64,000 nucleotides of DNA. It comes from Fibrobacterota bacterium (GTDB lineage Bacteria; Fibrobacterota; Chitinivibrionia; Chitinivibrionales; FEN-1185). The stretch's first letter is position 1; each line of letters begins with the position of its first letter. The position numbers were made by a program, and so were the translations under genes. A model generated the notes under the pieces. It worked only from the letters and a program-made list of their open reading frames with translations. It ran no database searches and was not told the DNA's origin. This document shows positions 10,597 through 56,400 of the stretch, piece by piece. Location of the stretch: the NCBI GenBank assembly GCA_003165595.1, contig PLWQ01000018.1:125444-189443 (forward strand), read 5' to 3'.

Positions 10597-12834
10597 CTAG
10601 GGATACTGATCGATAACCGATTTGGTGTTTGCGCTGTTGGCAGTGGCGCCTGTTCCGTTGACAACATGCGTGATCTGCCCCTGGTTGCCGCCGAGAGAAA
10701 TGATGACGGCGTGGTGAATCTTCATTGCTCCGCCGGTTGGACCTTCAATGGCATTGTCCACCTTGATCGCAGCCTTGTTGAAATAGGCATAAATTCCAAG
10801 CCCCCATGCCTCGTGACTGGTGACCGTGCTCGCCACCTTGTATGACGCGTACCCGCTTGCGCCGTCATGGTTGAAATCGCCCTGGCTCGGCACGTCGTAG
10901 GGCATTTCACATTGCAGGAAGTAGTTTCGGCCGTCGTTTCCGTTCCACATACACTGGTATTGCTGGTGATGTTCAACCATTTGAGCGTACACGGTCACCT
11001 TGTTGCCGTTGACAATGAGGCCGTGCTTGGAGGTATTCGAAGTCCAACCAACGCCGGTGCCGTGATCCGCGCGCCAGAGCCAGCAGTGGTCAAGGATAAC
11101 ATTGTTGCTGTTGATCATCACCGCGCAGGAGTCCTTTCCGGCGCCAAAACCGCCTTCCCGCGCAAAAATGTCGAACAGGCAGGTGGGGTTTGCGCTGTGA
11201 TCATTCGGACTGTCCGGATCGTCGCCTACCAGCAACTGCACGTCGACAGCTGACGTGCCGGCATCGAACAGCAGGCCGCCGATCTTCACTCCGTCAACAT
11301 CGGCCACCCGCATTGATATGACGCCGTTTGCCGGTACCAGAGTGGCGAATCCGAGTCCCAGAACCACGGTATTCGGCCGGAGAATGGAAATGGAGTTTTC
11401 GAGATTGTAAATGCCCGGCGTGAGGATCAGGTTCTTGCCCTGTGCGAGTGCCGCGTTGATGGTGGCGGCGCTGTCGGTTGCGGCCCGGGCAAGGTAGAAC
11501 TGATCGATGGGCATCGATTCTCCCGCCAAGGTCGCGCCCCCCCAGGTGATGCCCTGTGAGTTGCTTCTGAGTGCAGGAACAAATACGGAGTAATTTCCCG
11601 CTGCGTCAATGCAGAGAAAGGGCTTTTCGCGAGAGACGGGCGTAAGCGGAACAACCGAGACAGCGCCGGTGGGCCAGTTTTCCAAGGGTGGGTCCATGTC
11701 GCCTTGAAAGAACATGTTCCAAACGCCGCCGGCCCACGCTGCAAGATTGCAGTTGCGTGTGTACCACTGCTGCTGGGAGCCGGAGGAGATCGTCCCGTCA
11801 ATCATGCAGTCGGACATGAAGCCGCCGCTGGAGCCGCCGCCGTCATCGAGCTTCATCGCGCCCTTCACGTGCATCCGCCTGAACGGCGCGGCCTGAGAAA
11901 CCGCCCACACATCCGTGCCGCCCGTGGGAGAAACGCTCAAATTCTCCGCGCCGCGCCAGAAATATACCAGTGAACTGGTGCCCCGCGACTGCACTGCACC
12001 CGTGATCGCAACCGAATCCGGAGAAAGCCCCAGCCCGAGCGCCTGGATGTAGTAGCCCAGGGTGACTGTGAGATTGTAATGCCCCGGCTTGAACAAATAG
12101 GCTGCACGCTGGGTCGAGAACTGCGACGTGGAGCCCAGAAGTCCATCCATGGTGGATTGGATCGTGGACATCGGCATCGACGGGTCGAATATTTCTACGT
12201 TTGGTCCAAAGTCCGGGGCGGACACGCCGGAGAGCACAATATTGATTGTGTCCGTGAGTGAGCCGATCTGCCGCACGTTCGTCTGGTACCCGGATTTGGC
12301 CGCTTGCAGCCAGTCGGTTGCCTCTCGTTTCGACAATAAACTGTTTGTCAATGACCCGCTCGATACGGAGAATGCGCCGGTACTCCGGGATTCAATCGGG
12401 TATGTTCTGTTCGTCCCGCCGATGGAGACGTGCAAAAGGAGAATGCCGTGGCCGAGCCGGTTGGCGGCGGCCGAAGCGCTCGTGGTGCCCATACTCAGCA
12501 TGCCGGAAAAAACCCGTGCAACCAGTCTGCCCCGAACGTCGGAGAGCGTGACATTCGCTGGCATTGGCTCCGGAACTCGAAAGACGAACGAGCCGTTTCT
12601 GTATGCGACGCTACAGGCGGGTCTTTGAGGAACGGGCACAATTGTACCCGTCCGGCTTGCAAGCAAATAGGTGCCGTCCGCCCTCGTGGTGCAAGACGCA
12701 GCGTGCACAAAAAGCCTTACGACCACTCCTTGCAAAGGTTGGCTGGACGTGTCGGTGACGGTCCCGGAAATATTGACGGTTTGGCCGCAGACAAAAGAGA
12801 ATAGGAGCAGGATCGGCAGCGAGACTTTTCTCAT
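10597..12834 (-). CDS. Secreted beta-helix protein of the family often labelled 'adenylyl cyclase'
   Basis: About 745 residues. MRKVSLPILLLFSFVCGQ is a signal peptide. Next comes a CarboxypepD_reg-like beta-sandwich (VNISGTVTDTSSQPLQGVVV), a sorting-like module (LSDVRGRLVARVF), then a domain of roughly 540 residues. That domain strongly recalls proteins from Streptomyces and other actinobacteria named 'adenylyl cyclase' by old annotation: DFGPNVEIFDPSMPMSTIQS, WAVSQAAPFRRMHVKG, TPVSREKPFLCID, ADVDGVKIGGLLFDAG and WRADHGTGVGW. The pattern is of a right-handed parallel beta-helix, likely polysaccharide-binding or -degrading, not a cyclase. The ATG at 12834 has GGGGAG upstream on the minus strand. 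The gene sits antisense within the transporter locus. Confidence 0.8.
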   Translation of the reverse strand: MRKVSLPILLLFSFVCGQTVNISGTVTDTSSQPLQGVVVRLFVHAASCTTRADGTYLLASRTGTIVPVPQRPACSVAYRNGSFVFRVPEPMPANVTLSDVRGRLVARVFSGMLSMGTTSASAAANRLGHGILLLHVSIGGTNRTYPIESRSTGAFSVSSGSLTNSLLSKREATDWLQAAKSGYQTNVRQIGSLTDTINIVLSGVSAPDFGPNVEIFDPSMPMSTIQSTMDGLLGSTSQFSTQRAAYLFKPGHYNLTVTLGYYIQALGLGLSPDSVAITGAVQSRGTSSLVYFWRGAENLSVSPTGGTDVWAVSQAAPFRRMHVKGAMKLDDGGGSSGGFMSDCMIDGTISSGSQQQWYTRNCNLAAWAGGVWNMFFQGDMDPPLENWPTGAVSVVPLTPVSREKPFLCIDAAGNYSVFVPALRSNSQGITWGGATLAGESMPIDQFYLARAATDSAATINAALAQGKNLILTPGIYNLENSISILRPNTVVLGLGFATLVPANGVISMRVADVDGVKIGGLLFDAGTSAVDVQLLVGDDPDSPNDHSANPTCLFDIFAREGGFGAGKDSCAVMINSNNVILDHCWLWRADHGTGVGWTSNTSKHGLIVNGNKVTVYAQMVEHHQQYQCMWNGNDGRNYFLQCEMPYDVPSQGDFNHDGASGYASYKVASTVTSHEAWGLGIYAYFNKAAIKVDNAIEGPTGGAMKIHHAVIISLGGNQGQITHVVNGTGATANSANTKSVIDQYP

Positions 12835-13208
12835 GTGAACAAGGCTCCCCAAAGGGCAAACAGTTCGTTCTGTCGTTGGAACTCCGGCCGGACCGGCCGC
12901 CTATCAATGGTAGCCGCCTGGCGAGGAGGTCCCAGGAGAACTCCCGGCCAATAACCTTTCCCGTTGTCCTGTCCGACTCGTCTATCCTAAAATATAATTG
13001 CAGAACCAGCCGCCGTTTGAACTCCGTCACGCGTCAGAACAATTTCTTGTTATGGTTAGGTGCGGCGTGATCCGCATTCTTATCCGGGTAGGGCGAGTGA
13101 ATAGATACACGGTATCCTCGGTTTCCAGCTCGATCAATAATTATTTTATAGTCCGGGGATTTCTTCCGACGAATTCGAGCCGCGTTTCTCAACCAGGCTG
13201 CAGGCGCA
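12835..13208. other. Divergent intergenic region
   Basis: 374 bases between divergent genes, with no gene seen. A perfect TATAAT at 12993-12998 on the plus strand could be a -10 box for the 13209 gene, but no good -35 box stands 16-18 bases before it. Other short frames here have no ribosome site. Confidence 0.5.
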
Positions 13209-22033: not shown

Positions 22034-23038
22034 ATGCGTGCGATTTTTGAAGGTTTTGTTTTGTGTGCCGTCATTACGGGAGCGGCGTTTTCTCAGGATG
22101 CCACCGGTTGGCCGCACAAGAATGCCGCAGGTCAAACCGTGCGGCACGTTATAATCATGAACCATTTGAACAAGGCCTTTACCTTGGAACTCTCGGGATA
22201 TGCCAACCGGACAATGAATCCCGGAGACAGTATTGTGCTTGAACATGCCTTTGGATGGGCTTCCGCGCGATGCTCCGGGACCTATCCCGGCACAACCAAC
22301 ATGGGGTCTTTGTCGCTTGCGGAATGGACAATGGGCTCCAACAACAACGACGACTGGTACGATGTGAGCCTCGTTGACGGATACAATCTTCCGGTGCGGA
22401 TGTTCCCGGTCAAAGGGACCTTCACTACTTCAACGGCGGCATATATGTGCGATACCGTCGGTTGCACCAAAGACCTGCTTCCCAATTGCCCGCCAGAATT
22501 GCAGGTGAAGAGCTCCGACGGAACTCTCATCCAATGCCTGAGTGCTTGCGCCAAATTTCATGCCGACTCGTTCTGCTGCTCCGGGACCTACAGCGTGCCG
22601 CAAACGTGTCATGCTACGGCGTATTCCAAACTTTTCAAAGATGCCTGTCCCTGGGCGTACAGCTATGCCTACGACGATCTTGCAAGCCTTGACCAATGCG
22701 TATATTCCAACGGCATTGGGCCGGATTACGTCATCGAATTCGGCTATTTCACGGCTCAAACCGCGGTGGCATGGAAACCGTCCATAATCCTTTCCAGCGT
22801 CAATGCCGACGCAATCACCAAGGGCAGGGACAATGTCTTGCGGTATTCGATCACCGGACCTCATTCCGGCGGCGCTTCGCTCGGGCTGTACGACTGCGCC
22901 GGGCGTCTGGTTGCTCAAACGGAAGTGATGGAATCGGCCGGCGCTATGACGCTGGCAGGTGTCTCAAAAGGAGTGTATGTCGCCGTGCTTAAAGCGGGAA
23001 AACAATTGCTGGCGCAGAGTACGGTGGCGGTGAAGTAG
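22034..23038 (+). CDS. Secreted thaumatin-like (GH152-type) protein with C-terminal sorting domain
   Basis: 334 residues. The signal peptide ends around residue 20 (AAFSQ). Residues about 25-250 match the thaumatin/PR-5 fold: VSLVDGYNLPVRMFPV, the cysteine series CPPELQV ... CLSACAKF ... CCSGTY ... QTCHATAYSKLFKDACPWAY, then SYAYDD, and at least twelve cysteines for disulfides. Thaumatin-like proteins are antifungal in plants, and some have beta-1,3-glucanase activity (GH152). Residues about 265-334 are a FlgD/type IX-like C-terminal module (LGLYDCAGRLVAQTEV, GVYVAVLKAG), suggesting export and surface attachment. It precedes three GH64-like genes in the same direction, so a shared beta-1,3-glucan target is likely. 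Confidence 0.8.
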   Translation: MRAIFEGFVLCAVITGAAFSQDATGWPHKNAAGQTVRHVIIMNHLNKAFTLELSGYANRTMNPGDSIVLEHAFGWASARCSGTYPGTTNMGSLSLAEWTMGSNNNDDWYDVSLVDGYNLPVRMFPVKGTFTTSTAAYMCDTVGCTKDLLPNCPPELQVKSSDGTLIQCLSACAKFHADSFCCSGTYSVPQTCHATAYSKLFKDACPWAYSYAYDDLASLDQCVYSNGIGPDYVIEFGYFTAQTAVAWKPSIILSSVNADAITKGRDNVLRYSITGPHSGGASLGLYDCAGRLVAQTEVMESAGAMTLAGVSKGVYVAVLKAGKQLLAQSTVAVK

Positions 23039-23092
23039 CTGATTCACATTGACAAAGAGTCTTATTCATCTCAATTTAAAGGGGAGGGTTAC

Positions 23093-24628
23093 ATGAAAAG
23101 GGCAGCATTAACGTGCATGGCGCTGGCGTTTTTCGCCGGGTCTGTTTTTTCCCAAGTCAACCTTTGCGGAAAGGTGACGGACAATAATGGAACCCCCCTG
23201 ACCAACACTATAGTCAGGTTGGGCCAGACAACCTACGACAACGGGTATGGGCAAAACGCGTACATTACCAAAACCGACAATACCGGTTATTACCACCTGG
23301 GGGATGGGATTTGCACCACTCCTGTTTTCAGAGAGGACCAAACGGTAAGGTCAGGCGCGTTTCCGAGGCCGTGCTATATTGGCGGGCAGGTTCTGTTTAG
23401 CCTGCCGCAGGACAATCTTCAGGTGACAATGGGACTGTATGACCTGTCCGGACGGTATGTCAAGGAACTCATGAACAGCCGTTTGTCCAGGGGTAATTAC
23501 GGCGTACGGGTGGATACCCGCGCCATGTCGTCCCAATTCTATCTTGTCCGCATCACCGTCAACGGCATGTCATCCGTTTTCAAGCTTCAGCCGCTTTCCC
23601 GGATTCAGGGCCCGGCCGTTGCTCAAAACGTTTCCGGATTCCAGACCAAACTTGAAAAACTCGCTGCTGTGGTGGACACGCTCCACGCAACGGAGCCCGG
23701 TTATACCCTCGGCGTGACGCCGGTTCAGGCGCTTACGGGACAGACCGATTTCGTATTGACGAAGAACAATACGTATAACGGCGATACGGCCGCCTTCTGG
23801 GGGAACACGAGCACCTATCCGACGAATGCCTCGTATGTCATCCTGAACAGGACCAACGGCGCGTTCCCGGACAGCAAGATCTTCTGGAGCATTCAGCAGA
23901 ACGGAACAAAGGTCTCCATTGCAACGCAACCTACGGTTCAGATCCCCAATGGCGGCGGAAGGTTCTATATCTGGATCGCTCCCAACGATTCGGGCAACAG
24001 ATATTACGATTGGCTCGAGGTCAATTACGGCGGCACCTGGAACGGCAATACCACGCAGGTGGATGGGTACAGGCTTCCGATTACCTTCCGGATTCACAGC
24101 GCTACCGGTTCGGATTGCATACTCGGCGCCTCATACTGGATGTTCTATTCGTCACACCAGTCGAAGTGGGATGAATTCGAGAACGAGACGCCCAAGGAAT
24201 TTACCCAGCTTGCCACGCATGATAATGCCAACATTTACGCAATGCATACCTCGCCTGTCAACCTGTTCAACACGGGCGGCCCCTATGCGAATTACTACGA
24301 TAAGTATCAGGATTCGGTCTTGGCTCACAACCCCGGATCGACCAAGGTGAGTTCCTGGGACGTTTCCGCCTGCACTGGCGGAGGCGTCGGCAGTTCGCCT
24401 GGATATTGTTCTGCCGTCAACAGACATTGCGGAACGCTTCCGCAAGCGGCATGGCAGATTGACACCAATTATTACAAGGCGCCACCGTGTAACTATTACT
24501 CATATTGGGTACACCGCCGCTCCATTAAGAACATGGCCTACGGCTTTCCGTACGACGACTTCGGCGGCCATGCCGCATTTTGCGCCCAGTCCAATATCCA
24601 GTGGCTGGCGGTCGCAATAGGTTGGTAA
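23093..24628 (+). CDS. GH64-like beta-1,3-glucanase, paralogue 1
   Basis: 511 residues. The signal peptide is residues 1-21 (FFAGSVFSQ). CarboxypepD_reg-like domain about 22-75 (LCGKVTDNNGTPLTNTIVRL). Sorting-like module about 97-165 (LYDLSGRYVKEL ... SSQFYLVRITVNG). Linker about 187-224. The catalytic region from about 245 to the end resembles GH64: SYVILNRTNGAFPDSKIFWS, RFYIWIAPND, YYDWLEVNYGG and VDGYRLPITFRI. In GH64 a Glu and a Asp about 15 residues apart are catalytic; here E309 and D324 fit. The end AYGFPYDDFGGHAAF is also GH64-like. GH64 enzymes release laminaripentaose from beta-1,3-glucan. GGGGAGGG is the ribosome site. Confidence 0.8.
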   Translation: MKRAALTCMALAFFAGSVFSQVNLCGKVTDNNGTPLTNTIVRLGQTTYDNGYGQNAYITKTDNTGYYHLGDGICTTPVFREDQTVRSGAFPRPCYIGGQVLFSLPQDNLQVTMGLYDLSGRYVKELMNSRLSRGNYGVRVDTRAMSSQFYLVRITVNGMSSVFKLQPLSRIQGPAVAQNVSGFQTKLEKLAAVVDTLHATEPGYTLGVTPVQALTGQTDFVLTKNNTYNGDTAAFWGNTSTYPTNASYVILNRTNGAFPDSKIFWSIQQNGTKVSIATQPTVQIPNGGGRFYIWIAPNDSGNRYYDWLEVNYGGTWNGNTTQVDGYRLPITFRIHSATGSDCILGASYWMFYSSHQSKWDEFENETPKEFTQLATHDNANIYAMHTSPVNLFNTGGPYANYYDKYQDSVLAHNPGSTKVSSWDVSACTGGGVGSSPGYCSAVNRHCGTLPQAAWQIDTNYYKAPPCNYYSYWVHRRSIKNMAYGFPYDDFGGHAAFCAQSNIQWLAVAIGW

Positions 24629-24653
24629 GCGTCCTTCTTGATCGAAATAACCT

Positions 24654-24704
24654 GGTTGCCACGTTTTTCCTTACGGAAAGACGTGGCAACCTTTGCCAAT
24701 TTTT
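24654..24704 (+). promoter_or_regulatory. Inter-paralogue hairpin 1 (terminator/attenuator-like)
   Basis: GGTTGCCACGT (24654-24664) pairs perfectly with ACGTGGCAACC (24681-24691), and the inside TTTTCC/GGAAAG extends the stem. It is followed by TTTGCCAATTTTT. A near-copy lies at the same place before paralogue 3. It may be an intrinsic terminator of paralogue 1 or an attenuator or processing site in a polycistronic message. Confidence 0.6.
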
Positions 24705-24738
24705 CGAGAGTTCTCTTTACAAAAAAGGGGAGGAAGAA

Positions 24739-26301
24739 ATGAAAAGGGCAGCATTAACGTGTATGGCGCTGGCGTTTTTCGCCGGGTCTGTTTTTTCCCA
24801 GACGGTCAACATGTGCGGAACGGTTACGGACGCGGGCGGAAAGCCGCTTGTCAACGCAGTGGTGAGATTAGGCCAGGCAACCTACGACAATGGATACTAC
24901 GCACAGGCACCGTACCTTGTGTCAACTGATGCCAGCGGACATTACCAATTGGGAACCGGAACCTGCAATGTGAATGTCATCCCGAGAAGCACGCTCGCAA
25001 ACGGCGACGCATTTTCGCGGCCCCAGTACGTGGGCGGGAAAGTGCTGTTCAGCCTTCCGCAAATAACTGCGTCGGTAAGGATGAGCATATACACGCTAGC
25101 CGGCCGGTTCGTGCGTGACGTGATGAACAAGACCCTTTCCAGCGGCAACTATTCGGTTTCAATCGACACACGCGGCATTTCGTCGCAGTACTATCTGCTT
25201 CGGGTGACCATCAACGGCGCGGCAACGGTAATGAGGATTCAACCTGCTTTTCACAGCACGGACGGGGCGATCGTTCAGAATTCTTCCGGATTCCAGACGC
25301 GCCTCGAAAAGCTCGCCGCCGTAGTGGACACGCTTCGCGCAACCATGCCGGGCTACACCATCGGAGTCACGCCGGTAACCGCGCTGTCCGGACAGAACGA
25401 TTTCATGTTGACGAAGAATAGTTCATGGAACGGCGACACGGCAGGGTTCTGGGGCAGCGGGTACCCGGTGGCGACTGGAGGAGTTACCTACGTCATCCTG
25501 AACAGGACCAACGGCGTCTGGCCGGACAGCCAGATTTATTGGGCCCTTAGCCAAAATGGAGCAAAAACAAGGCTTGACAAACAACGCACCGTCACGGTTA
25601 GCGGCGGAGGGAGATTCTACATCTTTATCGCCCCCAACGACTCCAACTCAAGATACATGGAGTGGGTCGAAGAAGCCGTCGGGAACGGAACCATTAACGG
25701 CAACAACCTGACCCGGGTAGACGGATGGAGACTACCGATAATGTTTAGAATCCATTTTGCCACAGGCAAAAATATGGATCGCGGTGACCTGTACGAGATG
25801 TTTTTCCAACCGCGCAAAGCAAAGTTTGACGAGTTTACAAACGAGGTGCCAAAGGAATTCACGAAGCTCGCCACGGCAGACTTCGCCAATATTTATGCGC
25901 CCCACATGATAGAACGGACAGGCCCCACCCTTTTTAACACTGGTGGGCCTTACGTGAGCTATTTCGACCGTTATCAGGACTCGTGTATTGCTCATAATAC
26001 GGGGGTGCCTGCCAAAACGACCGCTTGGAACATTTTTGCGTGTGCAGGATCCTATGGCGGTGCCCCAACCTGGGGTGGCAACATGAACAGGCATGTCGGC
26101 ACTCTTGCCTCGACACAATGGTGTGACTCATCAAATTTTTACCAGAATGCTCCCTGTAACTACTTTTCCAAGTGGGTCCATTTGCGGTCCGAGCAAGGTA
26201 TGGAATATGGATTCCCCTATGATGACGATTGTAACAAGTACTCGGGAATTGTGGGCGGCGTCAGCGGCGTCCAGTGGTTTGCAATTGCCATTGGCTGGTA
26301 A
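24739..26301 (+). CDS. GH64-like beta-1,3-glucanase, paralogue 2
   Basis: 520 residues, and the first 21 (signal peptide) are identical to paralogue 1. Domain order is the same: CarboxypepD_reg-like (MCGTVTDAGGKPLVNAVVRL), sorting-like module (MSIYTLAGRFVRDVMNK, ISSQYYLLRVTINGAA), linker LEKLAAVVDTLRATMPGYTI, then the GH64-like region with TYVILNRTNGVWPDSQIYW, YMEWVEEAVGN, VDGWRLPIMFRI and GMEYGFPYDDD. The putative catalytic Glu and Asp are kept. The true start is the ATG at 24739 after AAAGGGGAGG; a longer frame upstream runs through the hairpin and the end of paralogue 1. Probably surface-exposed or secreted, acting on beta-1,3-glucan. Confidence 0.8.
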   Translation: MKRAALTCMALAFFAGSVFSQTVNMCGTVTDAGGKPLVNAVVRLGQATYDNGYYAQAPYLVSTDASGHYQLGTGTCNVNVIPRSTLANGDAFSRPQYVGGKVLFSLPQITASVRMSIYTLAGRFVRDVMNKTLSSGNYSVSIDTRGISSQYYLLRVTINGAATVMRIQPAFHSTDGAIVQNSSGFQTRLEKLAAVVDTLRATMPGYTIGVTPVTALSGQNDFMLTKNSSWNGDTAGFWGSGYPVATGGVTYVILNRTNGVWPDSQIYWALSQNGAKTRLDKQRTVTVSGGGRFYIFIAPNDSNSRYMEWVEEAVGNGTINGNNLTRVDGWRLPIMFRIHFATGKNMDRGDLYEMFFQPRKAKFDEFTNEVPKEFTKLATADFANIYAPHMIERTGPTLFNTGGPYVSYFDRYQDSCIAHNTGVPAKTTAWNIFACAGSYGGAPTWGGNMNRHVGTLASTQWCDSSNFYQNAPCNYFSKWVHLRSEQGMEYGFPYDDDCNKYSGIVGGVSGVQWFAIAIGW

Positions 26302-26326
26302 GTGGTTTTACGATCGATTTTAACCG

Positions 26327-26377
26327 GGTTGCCGCGTTTTTCCTTTCGGAAAGACGTGGCGACCTTTGCCAATTTTT
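26327..26377 (+). promoter_or_regulatory. Inter-paralogue hairpin 2
   Basis: GGTTGCCGCGT (26327-26337) pairs with ACGTGGCGACC (26354-26364). The differences from hairpin 1 turn two Watson-Crick pairs into G-U wobbles and keep the stem. The loop changes only TTAC to TTTC, and the same TTTGCCAATTTTTCGAGAGT follows. The conservation runs on to the ribosome site of paralogue 3. Confidence 0.6.
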
Positions 26378-26412
26378 CGAGAGTTCTCATAACAAAAAAA
26401 GGGGAGGGAGAA

Positions 26413-27957
26413 ATGCGAAAAGTAGCACGAGCAGGTCTGTTGCTGGCGTTTGTCGCCGGTACCGTCTTTTCCCAGACGGTCAATATCTGCGGAACTGTGA
26501 GGGACGCGGCAGGAAAGCCGCTTACCAACACGCTTGTACGGCTGGGCCAGACAAGGTTTACCGATACGTATGGTAACGAACCGTACTTTACCACAACCGA
26601 CGCCACCGGCCAGTACCACCTGGGCACGGGAACGTGCGCCGTCAACACTATCATTCCCGCCACGCTCATGCGGGGCGACGCCTTTTCCAGGCCCATGTAT
26701 ATCGGCGGCAAAGTGCTGTTTAGTCTGCCGCAGAATGATGCGTTTGTGAAGATGACCATGTACGATTTGACGGGCAGATTTGTGCGGGACGTGATGAGCA
26801 GCCGTCTAGCCAGAGGGAATTATTCCGCGTCGGTTGATACGCGCGGAATTGCTTCGCAGTTTTATGCGCTTCGCGTAACCATTAGCGGTGTTGCCACCGT
26901 GGTGAGGATTGAGCCCTCTTTGCACAGCGCCGGCGGTTCCATCGTGCAGAACACCCCGGAATTCCAGACTCGGTTGGAAAAGCTTGCCGCAGTAGTGGAC
27001 ACACTGCGCGCGACGGAGCCGGGATACACGCTCGGCGATTCGGCCATAACCACGCTGGCAGGACAATTTGATTTCACGTTGACAAAGAATCATGCTTTCA
27101 ATGGCGATACCGATGCGTTTTGGGACACAGCCCATGTAAAGAAAGAGGCAGGCCATTTATGGTTTACGGTCCTCAACAGGACTAACGGCCAGTGGCCGGA
27201 CAGCATGATATATTTGGCCATCGGGGATGGTGGAACTCCATGGCCGCTGAGCAAGACAAACACAATTGATATGACCAACACCGGGGGGGGAGGCAGACTG
27301 TACATTATGGTGGGGTATAACCCACTCAAAACTTCCGGGGGGTATAGGCCGCAGACGACTCAGGTGTGGGATTTTGAAGAGCATACCATCGGGGCTGGTT
27401 TGTGGTATCACGGTAATACCACGAGAGTTGATGCATATGGCTGCCCCATGTCTTACCGGCTGCATTGTACGGACGGTTTTGATACATGCCGCGGTGAAGT
27501 CCCCCATGTCTACTATCAGACGCGCCAATCGTTTTTCGACGAATTTGAAAACGAAGTGTCCTATGAATTTTCAAAACTCGGAACCATGCAAGCCCCATAT
27601 AAAATACCCAATCCGGGCACCACAGGCTCTGACATTGGTCCAGGCGGTAAATATGCAAGCTATCTGGATAAATATTGCAGTGCCTTCGGCGTTACTCAAA
27701 CCCCGTATTTGAATGGCATCAATGACGCTGTAACGGAGGGTGCTGTGGCTAGGCATGTGCTCGGTATGACCAACGCTCAACAAGCAGATTCCAAATACCA
27801 CTACAAAGCCGCACCATGCGATTTCTATGCATATTTTTTGCATAGGCGTGCATATGACTTCAAGTGTTATGGATTTCCATATGATGACTCATGGAATTGG
27901 TCTTCATTCATAGAACACGGCAATGTGTCATGGTTCGAGCTTGCGGTAGGATATTGA
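26413..27957 (+). CDS. GH64-like beta-1,3-glucanase, paralogue 3 (most diverged)
   Basis: 514 residues. Signal peptide (LLLAFVAGTVFSQ), CarboxypepD_reg-like domain (ICGTVRDAAGKPLTNTLVRL), sorting-like module (MTMYDLTGRFVRDVMSS, ASQFYALRVTISG) and linker are close to paralogue 2. The GH64-like half is more changed: WFTVLNRTNGQWPDSMIYL, RLYIMVGYNP, VWDFEEHTIGAG, VDAYGCPMSYRL and CYGFPYDDSWNWSSF. Glu and Asp candidates remain, but the usual L-P-I after V-D-x-x is C-P-M, so specificity may differ. The last 700 bases look AT-richer than the 5' half. ATG at 26413 follows GGGGAGGGAG. A strong terminator follows at 28010-28045, ending the locus. Confidence 0.75.
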   Translation: MRKVARAGLLLAFVAGTVFSQTVNICGTVRDAAGKPLTNTLVRLGQTRFTDTYGNEPYFTTTDATGQYHLGTGTCAVNTIIPATLMRGDAFSRPMYIGGKVLFSLPQNDAFVKMTMYDLTGRFVRDVMSSRLARGNYSASVDTRGIASQFYALRVTISGVATVVRIEPSLHSAGGSIVQNTPEFQTRLEKLAAVVDTLRATEPGYTLGDSAITTLAGQFDFTLTKNHAFNGDTDAFWDTAHVKKEAGHLWFTVLNRTNGQWPDSMIYLAIGDGGTPWPLSKTNTIDMTNTGGGGRLYIMVGYNPLKTSGGYRPQTTQVWDFEEHTIGAGLWYHGNTTRVDAYGCPMSYRLHCTDGFDTCRGEVPHVYYQTRQSFFDEFENEVSYEFSKLGTMQAPYKIPNPGTTGSDIGPGGKYASYLDKYCSAFGVTQTPYLNGINDAVTEGAVARHVLGMTNAQQADSKYHYKAAPCDFYAYFLHRRAYDFKCYGFPYDDSWNWSSFIEHGNVSWFELAVGY

Positions 27958-28298: not shown

Positions 28299-31200
28299 TC
28301 AAGGCAACGGGGAAGTATATACGTTGTAATCTGAGCTATTCACGGCGTAAATAGTGGTGCTATTTATTGCCAAAGCAACTGCATACCAACCGGAACCGGA
28401 CGGAAGTCCCGCATTCACCGCTAACCACGATGCGCCTCCGTCCATAGAGAGATATATTCCACTTCCACTTATGCTCGTGAATAATTGCGTTCCATTCGCT
28501 GCGAGCGCCGTGACGCTGCCAGTTGGTAGCCCTGAACTTACTTTTGTCCAAGTGTCGGTACCGTTATACTTGTAGACTCCGTCGCCTGCTCCTGCATAGA
28601 TCGTTCCCGCATACATAACAAAAGCATTCACGCTGGTTGTAATGCCGGTGCCGGCAGAACCCCATGAGTACCCAAGGACAGCTCGGGATTGGACGCCACT
28701 ACTTGTACCGGCATAGAGGGTACTGCCGCTTACCAACACGGCGTTTGCTGGGGGTGGGGATCCGGCGTCAACGTTCCACGAGGCCCCATTGTCAGTTGAA
28801 TACATCACACTGCTACTGGTCGCGGCAAAATATCTATTGGCGGAACCATAGTATGCAAAACCGAGGACGCTGCCGCCGACCGTAGTGCTGGACCAACTAG
28901 TTCCATAATTGGAGGAATAAAACAACTTGCCGTTGCCATAATTGTTTCCTACCAAGGAGATCCCGCCAAAAATCGCAAGACCGGTCAAGTAGTTCATTCC
29001 TACCGTCATGAAGGATGGATCCTGCACCCAATTTGAACCGTTGTCAGGAGATCGATACACTCCCTGCTTGTGGGTCCCGACCAAGATAGTATCGCCTTGG
29101 GCAGCAACCGTCATTGGGTATGTACCAGCAGACTGAAAATTGTATACTGGATTCCAAGAAACTGTCCCAATCGTCGTGAAGCTCCACGCACCAGACCAAC
29201 TGCTTGGACCTCCCGCGTTCACCGCCCTGACATGCCAGTAGTATATGGTACTGTTGGACAACGCAGGGGACACTGGCGTTGATGTAGCGGTTATTCCTGT
29301 TCCGTTAGATACTACTGTTGAAAATGCCGGGTCTGTCGCGACCTGCACGTCATATGACGACGCACCGGTTGCCGCGTTCCAATTCAATGTCGGTGTTACC
29401 GCAACTCTCGTCGAAGCGTTTGCCGGCGAGGAGAGCGTCGGGGCGCCTGGAGCCGCTGGAACAGTTGTAAAGCTCCACGTACCGGACCACGCGCTTGTAC
29501 CTCCCGGGTTTGAAGCATTCGCGTGCCAGTAGTAAAGCGTATTGTTCGACAACGTAGTCGACACGGCTTGAGACGTTGCCGTTAACCCGGACATGTTGAA
29601 CACAGTTGATGCAAAGTTCGAAACGGTGGAGACCTCTACCTGGTAATAGGTCGCATCCGACGGTGCGTTCCAAACAAGAGTTGGTGAAACCGACACACTT
29701 GTAGCATTGTTCGCCGGAGCCGAAAGCGTGGGTGCCGCCGGCGCCGCAATAATCGTGGTAAAGGAGAACGCCGTAGACCATGCGCTCACGCCCCCGGCGT
29801 TCTTGGCAATGACATGCCAGTAATACTGCGTGCTGTTCGCAAGCGAAGTCAAGGCCCTTGACCCACTTGTCAACGTCGAATCGTCAACAACAATCCCGGT
29901 CGAGAAATCGGACGCGGTCGAAACCTGCACCCGGTAGGTAGCAGCGCCGGCCACGGCGTTCCAAGTGAGCGTTGTGCTCACCGGTACGCCGGTGGCGTTG
30001 TTTGCCGGAGCCGTTGGCGTGGGAGCGGCAGGTGTCGCGATTATGGTGGTAAAAGAGAAGGCCGTCGACCAGTTGCTTGTTCCCCCTGCGTTCTTTGCGT
30101 CAACGTGCCAATAGTATTTTGTGCTGTTTGACAATAACCCGACTGCTCTTGACGGCGTTGTCAACGTCGAATCGTCAACGACTATTCCGGTTGAGAAGTC
30201 AGACGCGGTTGAAACCTGCACACGGTAGGTGGCCGCGCCGGCCACGGCGTTCCAAGTGAGCGTTGTGCTCACGGGGACTGCTGTTGCATTGTTCGCCGGT
30301 ACCGTGAGTACGGGCACTCCGGAAGTCGCGACGACCGTGGTAAAGCTGGAAACCGCCGACCATGCGCTTGTCCCGCCGGCATTCTTGGCATTCACTCGCC
30401 AGTAATACACGGTGCTGTTCGTGAGACCGCTCAGCGCCTTTGACGCGGCTGTCAATGTCGAATCGTCGACAACCATTCCGGCTGAGAAATCGGACGCCGT
30501 TGAAACCTGGACCCGGTAGGTGACCGCGCCCGTGACCGCGCTCCATGTGAGTGTGGGATTCAAGGCCACACCGACTGCGCTGTTGGTCGGGGCGGAGGGT
30601 ACTGGTACACCGGACGTTGCGACAATGGTGGTGAACGAAAATGGGGTTGACCATGCGCTTGTCCCTCCTGCGTTCTTGGCATTCACCCGCCAGTAGTACT
30701 GCGTATTGTTCGCGAGCGAACTCAGGGCCTTTGACGCCGTTGTCAAGGTCGAATCGTCGACAATGACGCCGGCTGAGAAATCGGACGCTGTTGAGACCTG
30801 GACACGGTAGGTGACGGCACCAGTCACCGTGCCCCACGCGAGAGTCTGACTTGTTGCCACTCCGGTTGCGCCATTGGCCGGGCTCGAAAGCACCGGCACT
30901 CCGGATGCCGCAACGATTGTGGTGAAGCTGAAGGCCGTGGACCACGCGCTTGCTCCGCCTGCATTTTTGGCGTTGACGCGCCAGTAATATTGAGTGCCGT
31001 TCGAAAGGGACGTCAGTGCTTTTGACGCGGCTGTCAAGGTTGAATCGTCAACGACAATTCCTGTTGAGAAATCGGACGCTGTTGAAACCTGGACGCGGTA
31101 GGCGGTGGCTCCGGTTACGGCATTCCACGTTAAGGTTTGACCCACAGCTAATCCGGTTGCGTTATTGGCCGGAGACGACAGGGTTGGTGCGGACGGTGGC

Positions 31201-33026
31201 ATCATAACCTTGAGATGCCCGTATGCAGACGTATCCGAACCGGAAGAATTTACGGCAACTACGAAATAATTCCCCGAGTCTGTGGCCGCCACTTTTGAAT
31301 TCTGATACAGCGGGTTGGTGCTTGAGTCCACCATGGCGGCGCTGCCTTTGGTCCCGTGGTACCAGATGAACGTCGGCGAGGGTGACGCATTGTTTGTTGC
31401 AACTGTAAATGTCACGGATCCGCCGACTGCAACGGTGGTGTCGGAGCGGGGTTGCGTTGCAATTTTTGGAGCGACCTCGACGGAACTGACTGAAACAATG
31501 ACAGTCGCCGCTGCGCTCCAGAGTGTTCCGTCCGAGGCCTTTACCGCAAACGTATCGGCGCCTGTAAAACCGGAATTCGGCGTATAAACTATGCCGCCCT
31601 TCGTGGAATCGGCAAGTGTCGCTGTTCCGTTGTGCGGCTTTTGTGTCACCTGCCATTGTTTGATTGAATCGTTGTCCGGATCCGTTGCGCTGAGGGAAAC
31701 GGTAATGGCCTGGCTAATGGAAGTATTTACCGATTGCGCCTGCACCGTTGGCGGCCGGTCGGTTTTTGTAACGGTAATTTTGACCGTGTCTTTTCCAACG
31801 CCATTTGCGTCGGTTGCGGTGAAGATTATGTAATACACGCCGGATTCGCCATAGGTGGGCGTCCAGGTGAATTGTCCGCTTTTTGCATCAAAGGCTGCAG
31901 AATCCGGCAGATTTGCACCGGTGAGAAGCGCCGCGCTGAGCGTTGCCGTGTCCCCGGCAGAGGTAACTGCCGACACCGTAAAGCTGATGGCCTGGCCTTG
32001 CGCCACGGATGGTGCGGTGTCGGCTGCCGGTACCATGATGACCGGCGGCGTCTTGACGGATTGCGAGCCGACGGTGATGTACACATTCTGCGTATCCGAC
32101 ATCGGCGGGTTGCCGTTGTCGGTAACTGTGAAGACGACGGTGTCTATTCCTTCAAAAGTTGCCGGCGACGACCACGTGAAGCTGGTGCCGGTAAGGGTTG
32201 CGCCGGCTGGAGATTTGAGCATTGTATAGGTATGGGTCTGGCCGCTGTCTGCATCCGTTTCGGAGAGGGAAAGCGCACAAGCCTGTCCGCTCACGATGCT
32301 TCTTGCGCCGGAAATACTGAGAACGGGCTTGTGGTTGACCGCCGGATTGGCCTTGACATGCAGAAACGCGGGCAGGCTTACAACCGAGTCGCCCCACTGG
32401 TCCTTGATGACGCACGAGTAAGAGCCGGAATCGGCGAGATACACCGGATTCACAATAAGGCTATCCTTGTTTGCGCCGGAGAGAATGATGCCGTTTTGAA
32501 TCCATTGATAGGTAAATACAGAGCCGGTGCCGGTGACCGAAACAAAAAACGTGTCCGATTGGCCCTCGGTGACGGAATTGCTCAGGGGATTCGCCGCCAA
32601 AGGAATCTTCTTGCCGATTATCTCAATGCTTGAGGTAGATGTCTTCTGGGCCGACCCTTGCAGGGTAGTGACAACCGTAACCGTATGTTTGCCGATCGTG
32701 TGGAGGTTGATAAGAATCCATTGCGTGTCGGTCCATGAGGCGGTATTGTTGAAGGTGATAGCTTTATCGGTATCTACCGTTCCCCTGGCAATGGTTACAG
32801 ACACCTGGGTTATAAATGTTGGCAGGTATGCGCTAAGTCCTACCCGGACCAGGTTTTCAACAGTGTCGGAGACCGAGTCCTTGCTCAGTTGGTTCAGCGA
32901 ATTCTCCACTACAAGGTTGACGTTGGCGTCTTGCGTCTTGAACGGGTTTTCCTGGCCTGTGCAGGAGAGCAGCGCAAGGATGGCGCAGGTGACAACGGAG
33001 TAGAAGAGGCGAATCTTGAGGGGCAT
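28299..33026 (-). CDS. Giant Ig / cadherin-like / FN3 repeat lipoprotein
   Basis: 1,575 residues. MPLKIRLFYSVVTCAILALL followed by SCTGQ is a lipoprotein signal (Cys about 22). Domains in order: N-terminal region to about 150; an Ig-like domain (FTYQWIQNGIILSGA); three cadherin/Big-like domains (each opening with a P-V/P-x-I strand); a second Ig-like domain (FIWYHGTKGS); seven FN3 domains of about 97 residues, each with LTWNAVTGATAYRVQVSTAS- and YYWRVNAKNAGG-like strands; and a C-terminal beta-propeller-like region with BNR/Asp-box hints (SPDNGSNW, STDNGASW, SMDGGASW). It is likely a surface-anchored adhesin or substrate-binding scaffold. ATG 33026 has AGGAG ten bases upstream; the longer frame lacks a signal. 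Confidence 0.85.
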   Translation of the reverse strand: MPLKIRLFYSVVTCAILALLSCTGQENPFKTQDANVNLVVENSLNQLSKDSVSDTVENLVRVGLSAYLPTFITQVSVTIARGTVDTDKAITFNNTASWTDTQWILINLHTIGKHTVTVVTTLQGSAQKTSTSSIEIIGKKIPLAANPLSNSVTEGQSDTFFVSVTGTGSVFTYQWIQNGIILSGANKDSLIVNPVYLADSGSYSCVIKDQWGDSVVSLPAFLHVKANPAVNHKPVLSISGARSIVSGQACALSLSETDADSGQTHTYTMLKSPAGATLTGTSFTWSSPATFEGIDTVVFTVTDNGNPPMSDTQNVYITVGSQSVKTPPVIMVPAADTAPSVAQGQAISFTVSAVTSAGDTATLSAALLTGANLPDSAAFDAKSGQFTWTPTYGESGVYYIIFTATDANGVGKDTVKITVTKTDRPPTVQAQSVNTSISQAITVSLSATDPDNDSIKQWQVTQKPHNGTATLADSTKGGIVYTPNSGFTGADTFAVKASDGTLWSAAATVIVSVSSVEVAPKIATQPRSDTTVAVGGSVTFTVATNNASPSPTFIWYHGTKGSAAMVDSSTNPLYQNSKVAATDSGNYFVVAVNSSGSDTSAYGHLKVMMPPSAPTLSSPANNATGLAVGQTLTWNAVTGATAYRVQVSTASDFSTGIVVDDSTLTAASKALTSLSNGTQYYWRVNAKNAGGASAWSTAFSFTTIVAASGVPVLSSPANGATGVATSQTLAWGTVTGAVTYRVQVSTASDFSAGVIVDDSTLTTASKALSSLANNTQYYWRVNAKNAGGTSAWSTPFSFTTIVATSGVPVPSAPTNSAVGVALNPTLTWSAVTGAVTYRVQVSTASDFSAGMVVDDSTLTAASKALSGLTNSTVYYWRVNAKNAGGTSAWSAVSSFTTVVATSGVPVLTVPANNATAVPVSTTLTWNAVAGAATYRVQVSTASDFSTGIVVDDSTLTTPSRAVGLLSNSTKYYWHVDAKNAGGTSNWSTAFSFTTIIATPAAPTPTAPANNATGVPVSTTLTWNAVAGAATYRVQVSTASDFSTGIVVDDSTLTSGSRALTSLANSTQYYWHVIAKNAGGVSAWSTAFSFTTIIAAPAAPTLSAPANNATSVSVSPTLVWNAPSDATYYQVEVSTVSNFASTVFNMSGLTATSQAVSTTLSNNTLYYWHANASNPGGTSAWSGTWSFTTVPAAPGAPTLSSPANASTRVAVTPTLNWNAATGASSYDVQVATDPAFSTVVSNGTGITATSTPVSPALSNSTIYYWHVRAVNAGGPSSWSGAWSFTTIGTVSWNPVYNFQSAGTYPMTVAAQGDTILVGTHKQGVYRSPDNGSNWVQDPSFMTVGMNYLTGLAIFGGISLVGNNYGNGKLFYSSNYGTSWSSTTVGGSVLGFAYYGSANRYFAATSSSVMYSTDNGASWNVDAGSPPPANAVLVSGSTLYAGTSSGVQSRAVLGYSWGSAGTGITTSVNAFVMYAGTIYAGAGDGVYKYNGTDTWTKVSSGLPTGSVTALAANGTQLFTSISGSGIYLSMDGGASWLAVNAGLPSGSGWYAVALAINSTTIYAVNSSDYNVYTSPLP
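29150..31200 (-). repeat. Tandem FN3-coding repeats, 291-bp period
   Basis: The plus-strand landmark GAGAAATCGGACG (or a one- or two-base variant) recurs at 29902, 30193, 30484, 30775 and 31066, exactly 291 bases apart, which is 97 codons. The units are very similar at the DNA level, including third positions, while the two C-terminal-most FN3 units (29150-29800) are more diverged. Confidence 0.85.
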
Positions 33027-33316
33027 GGTTTCCAATCTCCTGAAAACGTGGGATACCCGATATTTTCCCGTATCAAAATAAAATGCCGCGCAAAGTTCGG
33101 ATGTGACGCAGGTCACAATTGTCGCAGATTTTGACAAGTCACAAAATAGTTTATGACGGTCCGCAAGAACCTGCTTGATAAGGTAAGACTGCAGCTTTCA
33201 GGCAGCGGCCAAGGTGCGAGACGCCTCCGGGCCCGGCCTGGGCTCGGAGGTAATGTAATCAGCTCAAACCCGCAAAATATTCGACAATCGCAAGCGGGCT
33301 CTTTAGAGACAGATTC

Positions 33317-50206: not shown

Positions 50207-50456
50207 TTGGGGATGAGGTGCAACCCGCCCGCCAACCCAACCATTAACCCGTCCAACCTGCAATCCCGGGAAACCGAACCGCCTGCAGTCATGCTGGCCC
50301 GATTATTAGTCGTTTAATGTTTGTCCTTGAAAAAACCTTCCTTTGTCCATATAATAGATATGTTGTGTGCACAGGTCTCATCCGAAGGACTTTCCGGGCA
50401 ATCCGCCGTAAAGGGTTTTTCGTGTTTGCCCGGTGTTGATTATTATAAGTAAAGTT

Positions 50457-53400
50457 ATGACCCAACCACATCTTATTGTCATTCGTAAATTATGTGCCGC
50501 GGGAATGCTGCTGCTTGCCGGGGAGGCGTGGCAGGGGGATGTTTCCGCAGCCCCGATATTCGCGACAGCAGTGTCTGCAAGCTCAGATGACGCTTTTGAG
50601 GATACCTCCGATCATTCCGTAAACATTGACAGTGTTTGCAATCCAGTGGGTGCCGGTGCTCAAAATAACCGCAAAGTTGGGTGGGTTGGTCTTCGTTTTC
50701 AGAATGTTACTATTCCGCAAGGCTCTATAATAACCGCGAAAACAGGGACGGATTCAACCTACCTCCGGTTTTCATGCAAGGTTGCATCACTCGGATCTGC
50801 CAACGTTTACATCAAGGCGGAAGCATCGGACAATGCCTACGCGTTTGCGGCAACCGCAAGTAACCTCAGCGCCAGGCCCCAGACAACGGCATCAGTCTTA
50901 TGGACATGTTCGGGCGGAGGTGCGGTGCAATGGGATGCCAAATATATCAGCTTCGACATCGCTTCCGTGCTTCAGGAAATTGTAAACCGCCCCGGCTGGA
51001 GTTCCGGAATGTCGATAAATTTTCTGATTCACAATAATGCAGCGGCTCCAAACGGCTGGTTTGGCGCGGGCACTTTCGACAACGGCGCGGGATATGCCTG
51101 TTCGCTTCATGTGTACAATTACACCGCTCCGCCGTCGACGCAGACGGCATTAATCACCTTTAGCGCCGTGACCTCAACGGGAATGACTATTGGCTGGCAG
51201 CGTGGCAATGGCGCCAATTGCGCGGTGTTTATGTATCAGGGAACCTCCGGAAGCGCGTCCCCAGTATACGGCACCACCTACACCCAAAACACAACTTTCG
51301 GAAGCGGCACGCAAATAGGTTCCAGCGGTTGGTACTGCATCTATAACGGCTCAGGTACATCGGTTACTGTTACGGGTTTAACTACCAAAACATTTTATCG
51401 TATAATGGCCTGTGAATACAACAGCTCCGGAGCAACAACCCTCTACCAGACGAGTTCGAGCGCCGCAGGCAATCCCGCCAACTACGCCACCTACCCCAAC
51501 CTTGCACTCGGCAAGACGGTAACGGCTTCTTCTGCAGGCGGGGGAAATTTCGCTTCCAAGGCAACCGACGGCGGTTCCGGCACCCGGTGGGAGAGTACAC
51601 AAGGTGTCGACCCCCAAACGATGTACGTCGATCTTGGAACCGGATACTACGTTGACTCGGTCTACATCGATTGGGAAACAGCCTCAGCGAATCACTACCA
51701 GATTCAAGGTTCCAACGACGCCATAAACTGGACCACCATCAAGGACACTACCGACGGGCTAAGTCAGCAGCATCGTTTGAGGAGTTTCAGTTTTACAAAG
51801 ACGTTATACCGTTACATTCAGATGTACGGTTACACCAGAACCACGGGATATGGATATTCCATTTGGGAATTCGGGGTCTACGGCGACACCAACAAGGTGC
51901 CGGCAACGCAAGCTTCGGCCGTGACATACAGTTCCGTCACCTCAACCGGAATGACCCTTGGTTGGACACGCGGCAGCGGTGCCAATTGCGCCGTGTTTGT
52001 CTACGCGGGAGCCAGCGGGAATGCCGCGCCCGTGTATGGCACCACGTATACCGCCAACACCGCGTTCGGGAGCGGCACGCAAATAGGTTCTTCCGGATGG
52101 TACTGCGTGTACAATGGCGCAGGCACATCCGTGGCCGTCACTGGCTTGACACAGGGTACTGCGTACCAGACAATGGTTTGCGAGTACAACAGTTCCGGCG
52201 CAAGTACCGCATACAACACAAACACTGCCACCAGCAATCCGTCGAACCAGATAACGGCACCCGGCACTCAGGCAACTACCGTGACTTTTGGTTCCATCAC
52301 TTCAAGCGGAATGACCATCGGCTGGACAAACGGCAACGGCACCAGCCGCGCGGTGTTTGTTTATCAGGGAACCACCGGGAATGCCGCGCCGGTATACGGC
52401 ACCACGTACACTGCCAGCACCACATACGGGAGCGGAACGCAGGCCGGAGCCGGATGGTACTGTGTCTATAACGGCACGGGCACATCGGTAGCTATTACGG
52501 GACTGGCCGCGAGCACGGCGTACAGGGCAATGGTATGCGAATACAACAGTACCGGCCCGGGCGCCAGCTACAACACGGGCACCGGCACCGGTAATCCGGC
52601 GAATCAGACATCAGCGGCTGCCGGGGCGCCTGCGACTCCCACCGGGTTGACTTCAGGGACCTTAACGGCGACAACCGCGGCATTGTCGTGGTCTACATCC
52701 ACGGGCGCGACCTCGTATGAAATTCAGGTGTCGGTAACCTCCGGTTTTACATCCGTTTTGATAGATCAAACAGGAATCTCATCCACGAGCTATTCGGCAA
52801 CCGGACTTTCGGCCAGCACTACGTACTATGCTCGCGTAAATGCCACGAGTGCCGGAGGTACCAGCGCCTGGTCGGGTAACTACAGCTTTACCACGAGCGC
52901 CGCAAGCGGCAGCCTGGATGATTACAACAAATGGGCATACAGCGCCAGCGTTGTTCTGAACACCACCAACAGCGGCGGCGGTGCGAACGTGGCCACCGAC
53001 CAGAGCAATTTTCCCGTCCTGGTGAGATTAACGAGCAGCAATTCCAATATCTTTAGCCAGGCAAAGAGCGATGGGACCGACATCCGTTTTTCAAAGTCGG
53101 ACGGCACGCACATTCCCTACCAGATAGAGCGCTGGGATAATGCCGATAATATGGCGGAAATTTGGGTGAAATTTGACGTAAAGGGCAACAACAGCACTCA
53201 GTACTTTATGATGTACTGGGGCAACAGCGGCGCCGGGGACAGTTCGGGCGCGAGTGCGGTGTTTGCTACGGCAAACAATTTTCTGGGCGTGTGGCATCTT
53301 AAAGAAGGCGGAAACACCACAGCCGGCGGCTACGCCGATGCAACTGGCGTTTACCCTGCCACGGGAAACAATATGGCCTCTGCCGATCAGGTTGCCGCGG

Positions 53401-56400
53401 TAATTGACAGCGGTCAGAGCTATGGAAGCGGAACCGGCGGCAAGGCCATTTCATTGTTCAGAAATGGACTTGGGAGCGGATGTACAATAAACATCACAAC
53501 TGTTACCGCGGGTGTAATAAACGCGATAAACTCCACTCCAACGGCGGGCGGCAGCGGTTATGCCGTGGGAGATCAGTTACTGGTGGCAGGAGGAGATTGG
53601 GGAATAGCACGTGTGACTGCGGTTAGCGGAACGACTGTCACCGGGGTCACTATTAACGAAAGTCCAGCTCCCGGAGCGGGATGTACAATAAATACTACTG
53701 CCGCGGGGGGCAACTTAACTGCTGCTACTGTTAATGTCGCGAGTACATCTGGTATGTATTGTGTGGGTGACATTTTGTCGGTTGCCGGCGGCACTGGCGG
53801 AACGGTAAAGGTGACTGGAATTGCCGTGAATGGAGGAGGCGTCACCGCACTTGCCGTGCAGAATGCCGGAACCGGATATACTACTGCAACCGCAGTCGCA
53901 ACTACCACCACTAATCTCTATACCGTAAGTGCAGGAAATGCAACGACGGATTTTGGGCCGGGAATCGCTCTTTCGGCCGGTCAGACACTTACCTTTTACG
54001 CCTGGGTTGTATCCACGGGAAGCAGCCAGGCTTCCTGCATATTCGACATGGCGACCGCAACAAATGGGAATTACATCTTCATGGCTCGAAAGGATGCAAA
54101 TAACTTAACCGTTTCCACAAAAGGCGTTAATGACAATGGCGCCTACACAACGGACAATTCCTATCCGGTGACGACATCCACCTGGACGCACATCGGTTTC
54201 ACGGTGGACGGCTCGGGAAATGTAGCCATCTATGTAAATGGTGTTTCGCGCGCCACAACATTGGGCACAGGTTATCCTAAAGCAATTACCGCGGGCAATT
54301 ATTTTCTCAATACTTTGGGATCGCGATATTACAACGGTCCATCGCAGTTTTTTCAAGGAACAATCAACGAAGCCGTGGTTTCCAACGCGGTCTGTTCCGC
54401 GGACTGGATAAAGCTCTGCTACCAGAACCAGCAGAATGTCGCCGTTGGAGGATCGGGCCAGCTTGTTTCGAGCATCACGTGCAGTCCCGCGGCTCCCACA
54501 CTGTCCAATCCCGCCAATGGCTCAACTAATCAAACCACGACCCCCTCCCTGTCGTGGGGAACCTCGACCGGCGCGACCAGCTACAGAGTCCAGGTTTCAA
54601 CAAATTCGGACTGTTCCTCTCCGATCTACGATCAGAGCGGCATCGCCAGTACGTCGCAGACAGTGTCCCCGGCATTGTCAAACAGCACAGTATACTATTG
54701 GCGTGTGAGCGCCGCGAACAGCGGCGGTTCCAGTGGTTTTTCTTCGATTTGGAGTTTCACCACTACTTCGTCAAATCATGCGCCCACAGATATGTCGCTT
54801 TCCAACAAGGTCTTCAATACCACCACGCCGGTGGGAGCGAGGATCGGAACCTTCTTTACAACCGATGTTGACCTGCCCAACGATTTCCATACCTATACAT
54901 TTAACGGCGGCACGAACGATGCGAGTTTCAGCATCGCGGGCAATGCGCTGTATCTGGCCTCAACGCTTTCCGCAGGCACGTACCATATCAATGTCCGGAC
55001 AACCGATCAGGGAGCACTGCATTTCGATTCGACTTTTACGCTTACCGTTCAGACATGCTCGGGCGCGTGCACCGACAATTACTCGCAGTGGCAGTATTCG
55101 AAGCGCATCACGCTCAATACCACCCGGACCGGCGCGAATGTGACGAACACCGTGACGAATTTCCCCGTCCTGGTGAGTTTAAACCCGGGGAATTTCTCAT
55201 GGTTTTCGCAGACGCGGCCGGGCGGCACGGACATTCGTTTCTCCACAAACGACAGCGCCGCTACGCACCTTCCTTATCAAATCGAGCGCTGGTCCATTAA
55301 CTCGGGAAACAGCGACACGGCTGAAATCTGGGTCCTGATAAGCTCGGTCGCGGGAAGCAACAATCTGCAGACGTTCAAGATGTATTGGGGAAAAAGCGAT
55401 GCGGCCGACAGTTCGAACGGCCCCGCTGTTTTTGCGACATCCAACGGGTTTGTAGGTGTCTATCATTTGAGCGAAGGCGGAACAGGAACGCGATACAATT
55501 CCGCGCAGAGCAGCCATAATGGGACGACCGTCAGTTATGACGGCGATGAAAAGGGGACTGGTTTGGTGGGAGTAGGCGACTACCTTACTACCAACGACGG
55601 CATCAATCTCGGAGATATCGAAATAACCACAGCCATCACCCTGAGCGCATGGGTCAACCCGAATTCACTTATCGGCCGCGGGAGATTCATCAGCAAGCAA
55701 TGGACGACAAACGCGGCTCCATGGCAGTCGTATGCATTGCAATGGGATAACAGCGGCACGCCCCTGGTCCAGTTGCAGCTCGCGGTCAACGGCGCCCAAA
55801 CAGACGCGACCATGACGACAGCCTTGACATCAGGTACATGGGCCTATGTGGCCGGTACCTACGACGGCACCACTATGACAGCATATTTGAACGGAACGTC
55901 CAATGGTACTCCGACGACAGCGGCCGGATCAATCTCCGCAACGACGAGGAATGCAACGATCGCGTATAACGAGGATGCCGGCGATCAGCGGTTCAACGGC
56001 AGTATCGACGAAGTGCGCATCGAGAATACGGCGCGCTCCGCCGACTGGATACGACTCTGCTACCAGAACCAGCAAACCTCCCAGAACCTGGTGGATCCCG
56101 ACGACTATTCGGAATGGAAGTATTCGAAGAATATTGTACTCAACACCTCGCCCACAGGCGCGAACGTGGCCACGCCGCAGGCCGATTTCCCGGTCCTCGT
56201 GAGATTGACAAGCGGCACCTTCAATTTCTCGCAAGCGCAGGATTCCGGCCAGGATATCCGGTTTGCAAAGAGTAACGGTGCCCACCTGAAGTATCAGATT
56301 GAACGGTGGGACCGGAGCAACCAGCTTGCCGAAATCTGGGTGAGGGTCGACACGGTGTACGGCAACAACGGGAGCCAGTATTTCACCATGTACTGGGGGA

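Follow-up and report, generated by a model that had tools for sequence, protein, structure and literature searches.

The REDDD motif forms the acidic cleft of GH152 and thaumatin-like proteins (TLPs), some of which are without beta-1,3-glucanase activity. The TLP of the locus described here shares with cherry TLP (PDB 2ahn) and zeamatin the thaumatin domain, the cysteine pattern, and the acidic residues E97, D110, D115, and D214. Unlike the plant TLPs, it is bacterial, has a putative T9SS-type C-terminal tail, and lacks some of the N-terminal cysteines. The three GH64 proteins of the locus have in common with PbBgl64A (PDB 5h9x) a thaumatin-like fold, the catalytic Glu and Asp, and the NEV-EF and YGF-YDD motifs, whereas the N-terminal region of PbBgl64A is replaced in them by a nested module. 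The closest GH64 domains detected outside the phylum were those of actinobacteria (Microbispora, Kutzneria, and Streptomyces), the N-terminal parts of which, as judged by eye, looked F5/8-type where the GH64 proteins of the locus have the nested module.

The T9SS sorting domain (TIGR04183, PF18962; RgpB CTD) is normally C-terminal. In Porphyromonas, the final residues of the tail are required for secretion (PMC11285876). The GH64 proteins of the locus carry a domain that shares the sequence profile and, in the P3 model, the seven-stranded Ig-like sandwich of these tails, but it lies near the N-terminus, within a carboxypeptidase-regulatory-like domain. In a literature search that was not exhaustive, the only nested or internal T9SS domain found was that of the Chitinispirillum GH19 chitinase CHISP_3496, in which a Por domain precedes the C-terminal GH19 domain and was read as a surface signal (PMC4814513). 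That chitinase resembles the GH64 proteins of the locus in that a Por sorting domain comes first and the catalytic domain is C-terminal; CHISP_3496 also lists a chitin-binding domain, and in the portion of that report available to us the internal position is unremarked and nesting is not described. Because of this case, internal placement has already been seen, but not nesting or its extent.

Organization of the locus

The window is the whole stretch of DNA that was analyzed (64,000 nt). Positions 22034-27957 hold four ORFs in one direction, a TLP gene followed by the GH64 paralogs P1, P2, and P3, with spacers of 54, 110, and 111 bp. The TLP (22034..23038, + strand; 334 aa; GH152-type; Pfam Thaumatin 4e-41) comprises a signal peptide, a thaumatin domain (approximately residues 36-240), and a putative C-terminal T9SS sorting-type tail (approximately residues 273-334). 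P1 (23093..24628, + strand; 511 aa; Pfam GH64 1.9e-15; E309/D324) consists, from N- to C-terminus, of a signal peptide, the nested module, and the GH64 domain. It is followed by P2 (24739..26301, + strand; 520 aa; Pfam GH64 1e-9; E311/D328) and P3 (26413..27957, + strand; 514 aa; Pfam GH64 1.1e-17; E323/D340). Signal-peptide-like stretches were found at the N-termini of all four proteins.

The longest ORFs begin at 24580 (P2) and 26302 (P3), and the long P2 ORF overlaps the end of P1. Because a GGGGAGG ribosome-binding site lies before, and a signal peptide after, each of the downstream positions 24739 and 26413, these are likely to be the start codons of P2 and P3. Apart from these two shifted starts, the four ORFs were present where a sequence-only reading of this DNA had placed them. 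That reading had correctly described four proteins but omitted the N-terminal module of approximately 220 residues present in each GH64 paralog.

GH64 paralogs

The assignment of the three paralogs to GH64 held in the profile search, with PF16483 scores of 57.4, 38.6, and 64.8 bits for P1, P2, and P3, all above the curated cut-off of 27. The RTNGxxPDS and YGFPYDD motifs occurred in P1, P2, and P3, and the Glu followed approximately 15 residues later by Asp was kept in each (spacing of 15, 17, and 17 residues, respectively). The three adjacent genes (23093-27957) agree with the tandem duplication proposed earlier. P3 matched PbBgl64A (5h9x) at 5.1e-27, and its E323 aligned with the Glu of 5h9x that is Ala in the companion entry 5h9y. 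Across 13 family members from two species, the catalytic Glu and Asp did not vary, and their conservation was still at least 90% once actinobacterial relatives were included.

An AlphaFold2 model of P3 had a modest mean pLDDT of 63, with higher values in the GH64 core. Residues 233-514 of the model matched 5h9x (Z 21.7, with 30% identity across 268 residues), 5h4e (Z 20.1), and 3gd0 (Z 15.6), and matched plant TLPs at Z of approximately 10.4-10.8; a Foldseek comparison gave 1.8e-18. Both the GH64 assignment and the thaumatin fold are thus borne out. The GH64 domain of the window type is compact, covering only positions 112-369 (approximately) of the Pfam profile, and its subsites may therefore differ.

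A changed site in P3, C-P-M for L-P-I, had been taken as a possible sign of a new specificity. The motif was LPI in P1 and P2, CPM in P3, TPI in the P3 ortholog of the sister species, TPL and APL in its next relatives, and FPI in PbBgl64A. In the tree, L-P-I was the state of the P1/P2 clade, and P3 fell in a separate GH64 clade. This separation and the C-P-M itself could speak for a new substrate specificity of P3, but the position varies across the GH64 family, even in the P3 ortholog, so C-P-M lends the idea no support and was rejected as a specificity marker. In addition, P3 had the highest Pfam GH64 score among the three paralogs. We consider a new specificity of P3 improbable.

Thaumatin-like protein

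The thaumatin-family (GH152-type) claim was borne out by the Pfam match and by the cysteine series. The closest solved relative was cherry TLP 2ahn (E 2.4e-30), with 10 of 10 Cys in TLP residues 139-222 aligned with Cys of 2ahn. The four acidic residues also aligned, and the Arg of the motif was outside the aligned part. The description of this protein as eukaryote-like was too strong: the best solved relatives are indeed plant proteins, but an annotated thaumatin-family protein is encoded on a Streptomyces plasmid (37.7% identity over 42% of the TLP query). A pattern scan of viral contigs found no TLP relatives. At the C-terminus, TIGR04183 matched residues 273-326 of 334 with an E-value of 0.0041, below the curated cut-off; in a genome-wide search, the tails of paralogous TLPs passed that cut-off.

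N-terminal module of the GH64 proteins

In each GH64 paralog, approximately residues 21-225 fall outside the GH64 domain. In this region, Pfam recognized half of a CarboxypepD_reg domain followed by a weak Por_Secre_tail match. The modules are encoded at 23156..23758 (P1; insert at approximately residues 90-168), 24802..25410 (P2), and 26476..27081 (P3; insert at approximately residues 89-171), all on the + strand. The evidence from a tail profile and from excision of the insert, the latter applied to P1, P2, and P3 among others, gives good grounds for reading the module as a CarboxypepD_reg-like domain split by an insert resembling a T9SS sorting domain.

The tail profile was built only from C-terminal tails of the host genome and the sister species (TLP tails together with 27 loci from the top 30 for TIGR04183). 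Of the 47 module-bearing proteins searched, 46 were matched, mainly at approximately residues 73-217, and in no case near the C-terminus. E-values were 1.1e-9 for P1 (residues 106-165), 2.5e-9 for P2, and 2.2e-5 for P3; approximately 10 more distant module proteins were matched weakly, at 1e-3 or worse. A control protein rich in Ig and fn3 domains was not matched. P1-P3 have no C-terminal sorting domain and end in AIGW/AVGY.

Excision of the insert raised the CarboxypepD_reg score in five of five proteins (from 18.4 to 26.1, 23.5 to 34.2, 25.1 to 34.2, 32.8 to 36.7, and 31.2 to 42.1 bits), and the match, which had ended at profile position 42-53, extended to position 65-74. The ends of the excised segments were picked by eye, and the test is therefore supportive rather than blind.

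In the P3 model, the insert was a seven-stranded sandwich that matched, among others, the RgpB CTD (5ag8) with a Z of 6.0 and, with a Z of 5.5, NucA as the substrate chain in a T9SS complex (8glk); unrelated Ig and FnIII domains reached similar Z values or exceeded them. The module modeled by itself gave a poor structure (pLDDT 47). Because the P3 model is modest and the module-alone model poor, the nested topology rests on sequence, and the structural evidence for nesting is incomplete.

Spread of the module

Of 60 related genomes searched with the module profile, 49 gave matches, some of them to the tail part alone. Several families of the order had tens of matches in a single genome, and other classes had few weak ones. 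The module preceded GH64, GH3, GH30 (two), GH116, and GH45 domains, along with many that were unrecognized. Within the window, a 751-residue protein at 10597-12852 (- strand) carries the same nested module and no recognized catalytic domain.

A distant genus within the phylum also has the module ahead of GH64, and there the GH64 domain grouped with those of actinobacteria (91/97). One clade uniting every module-GH64 protein in the phylum was neither established nor rejected (p-AU 0.255). In that genus, two GH64 genes with the nested module lie in tandem (L203:5210-8425, - strand).

Role of the module

A T9SS route is suggested by one component, the SprA_N domain of the T9SS translocon, which is present in the host genome, together with the tails. 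The TLP would be exported by the T9SS by means of a sorting tail in the usual C-terminal place. The GH64 proteins lack such a tail and carry the lineage-typical N-terminal module. Because canonical cargo needs the last residues of its tail, the internal tail-like domain is likelier to be structural or to serve in attachment than to act as a standard signal. The most likely role of the module is presentation outside the cell, as a two-domain spacer or surface-attachment unit on many hydrolases of the lineage.

The nested module could instead work as a T9SS signal, with the machinery recognizing the sorting-type domain in its internal place and so secreting or anchoring the enzymes from their N-terminal side. 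In favor of this, the insert has homology to the tails found at C-termini in the same genome, SprA is encoded there, and the module proteins, which lack a C-terminal tail, include hydrolases that need access to insoluble polymers. The Chitinispirillum GH19 chitinase, with its Por domain before the catalytic domain, was also assumed to be surface-located (PMC4814513). However, the Porphyromonas tail needs its last residues, and an internal copy offers no free end (PMC11285876). We regard an active signal as unlikely. Equally doubtful is that the order has a further class of hydrolases handled by the T9SS or anchored at the surface through an internal nested domain, with no C-terminal signal.

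The nested module matters more than the glucan-lysis set. A function in secretion would call into question the rule that a T9SS signal has to be C-terminal; without such a function, tail-profile matches in the phylum are not readable as secretion signals, and at least one published annotation has read such a match in that way (PMC4814513).

Conservation and function of the locus

The host genome (5.39 Mb, 42 contigs) encodes approximately 11 GH64 proteins: seven window-type, two canonical (full length, with C-terminal tails), one divergent, and one fragment. It also encodes five thaumatin-family proteins. The earlier account was confined to the locus and did not mention this genome-wide GH64 expansion. 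The sister species, of the same genus, keeps the locus, with a TLP 74% identical followed by three GH64 genes; the P1 and P2 orthologs are in swapped order, and the third GH64 gene is apparently divided between two contig ends. In the survey of the phylum, which is probably Fibrobacterota, GH64 was found in 8 of 167 genomes, thaumatin genes in 5, and both in 4, belonging to two genera only.

The actinobacterial GH64 domains, the nearest to turn up in searches beyond the phylum, were approximately 34-43% identical over the whole domain. The tree grouped them with the window-type GH64 domains against the canonical GH64 of the same genome (100/100). A transfer of GH64 between Actinobacteria and this phylum, in either direction, is possible.

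Extracellular beta-1,3-glucan lysis, as first proposed, appears the most likely role, and the families, the fold, and the clustering in the sister species fit it. The GH64 enzymes would cut beta-1,3-glucan (curdlan, laminarin, or fungal or algal wall) outside the cell through the inverting GH64 mechanism, in which the conserved Glu would act as general acid, partnered by the conserved Asp. The products would be short laminari-oligosaccharides. The TLP may bind or hydrolyze the same polymer and so aid the GH64 enzymes; we infer such cooperation of the TLP with P1-P3. GH3 and GH30 enzymes encoded elsewhere in the genome are possible downstream partners.

Alternatively, the four proteins may not form one functional unit. 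The array of GH64 duplicates might merely adjoin the TLP gene: TLP and GH64 genes also occur separately elsewhere in the genome, and the distant genus with both families has them on different contigs. Against this, the TLP gene comes first and on the same strand in two species, the spacers are short, and the second TLP of the genome also adjoins a divergent GH64-like gene. A chance neighborhood of this kind seems to us a poor explanation, and the locus is probably a conserved, secreted beta-1,3-glucan degradation cluster in which the nested module would serve as the unit presenting the GH64 proteins outside the cell. With GH64 and thaumatin genes rare in the phylum, it is a small, testable set for beta-1,3-glucan lysis. 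The second TLP gene is 51% identical and lies with its GH64-like neighbor at L025:5559-7910 (- strand); both products appear to end in T9SS-type tails.

Intergenic hairpins and neighboring genes

The P1-P2 spacer contains a predicted RNA hairpin (24654..24691, + strand) with a 17-bp stem (z -6.1 vs. shuffles of 24645-24745). A near-identical element with an 18-bp stem, in which two pairs are kept as G-U, lies between P2 and P3 (26326..26365, + strand; z -4.3). The genome holds only these two copies, and a genome-wide REP-like element was accordingly rejected. The sister species yielded no copy, the locus had no match in Rfam, and neither hairpin is directly followed by a T run. The hairpins may act in mRNA processing or in tuning expression.

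The signal-peptide DNA of P1 (23093-23155) and P2 (24739-24801) was identical at 58 of 59 positions, and the block just 5′ of the P2 and P3 starts at 51 of 55. The GH64 genes were otherwise mostly 50-75% identical in 60-column blocks, and outside their signal-peptide DNA P1 and P2 were approximately 60% identical. Because identity in the signal-peptide and pre-start DNA is so much higher than in the remaining gene DNA, the pattern points to recent local exchange between paralogs (gene conversion, likely for the P1/P2 signal-peptide DNA) or to selection on the hairpin.

Downstream of the locus, positions 28299-33137 (- strand) encode a protein of 1612 residues that has Ig and cadherin-like domains and several fn3 repeats. 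Farther along the window, a giant ORF of 3788 aa (50433-61799, + strand) has a weak T9SS tail-profile match near its end.
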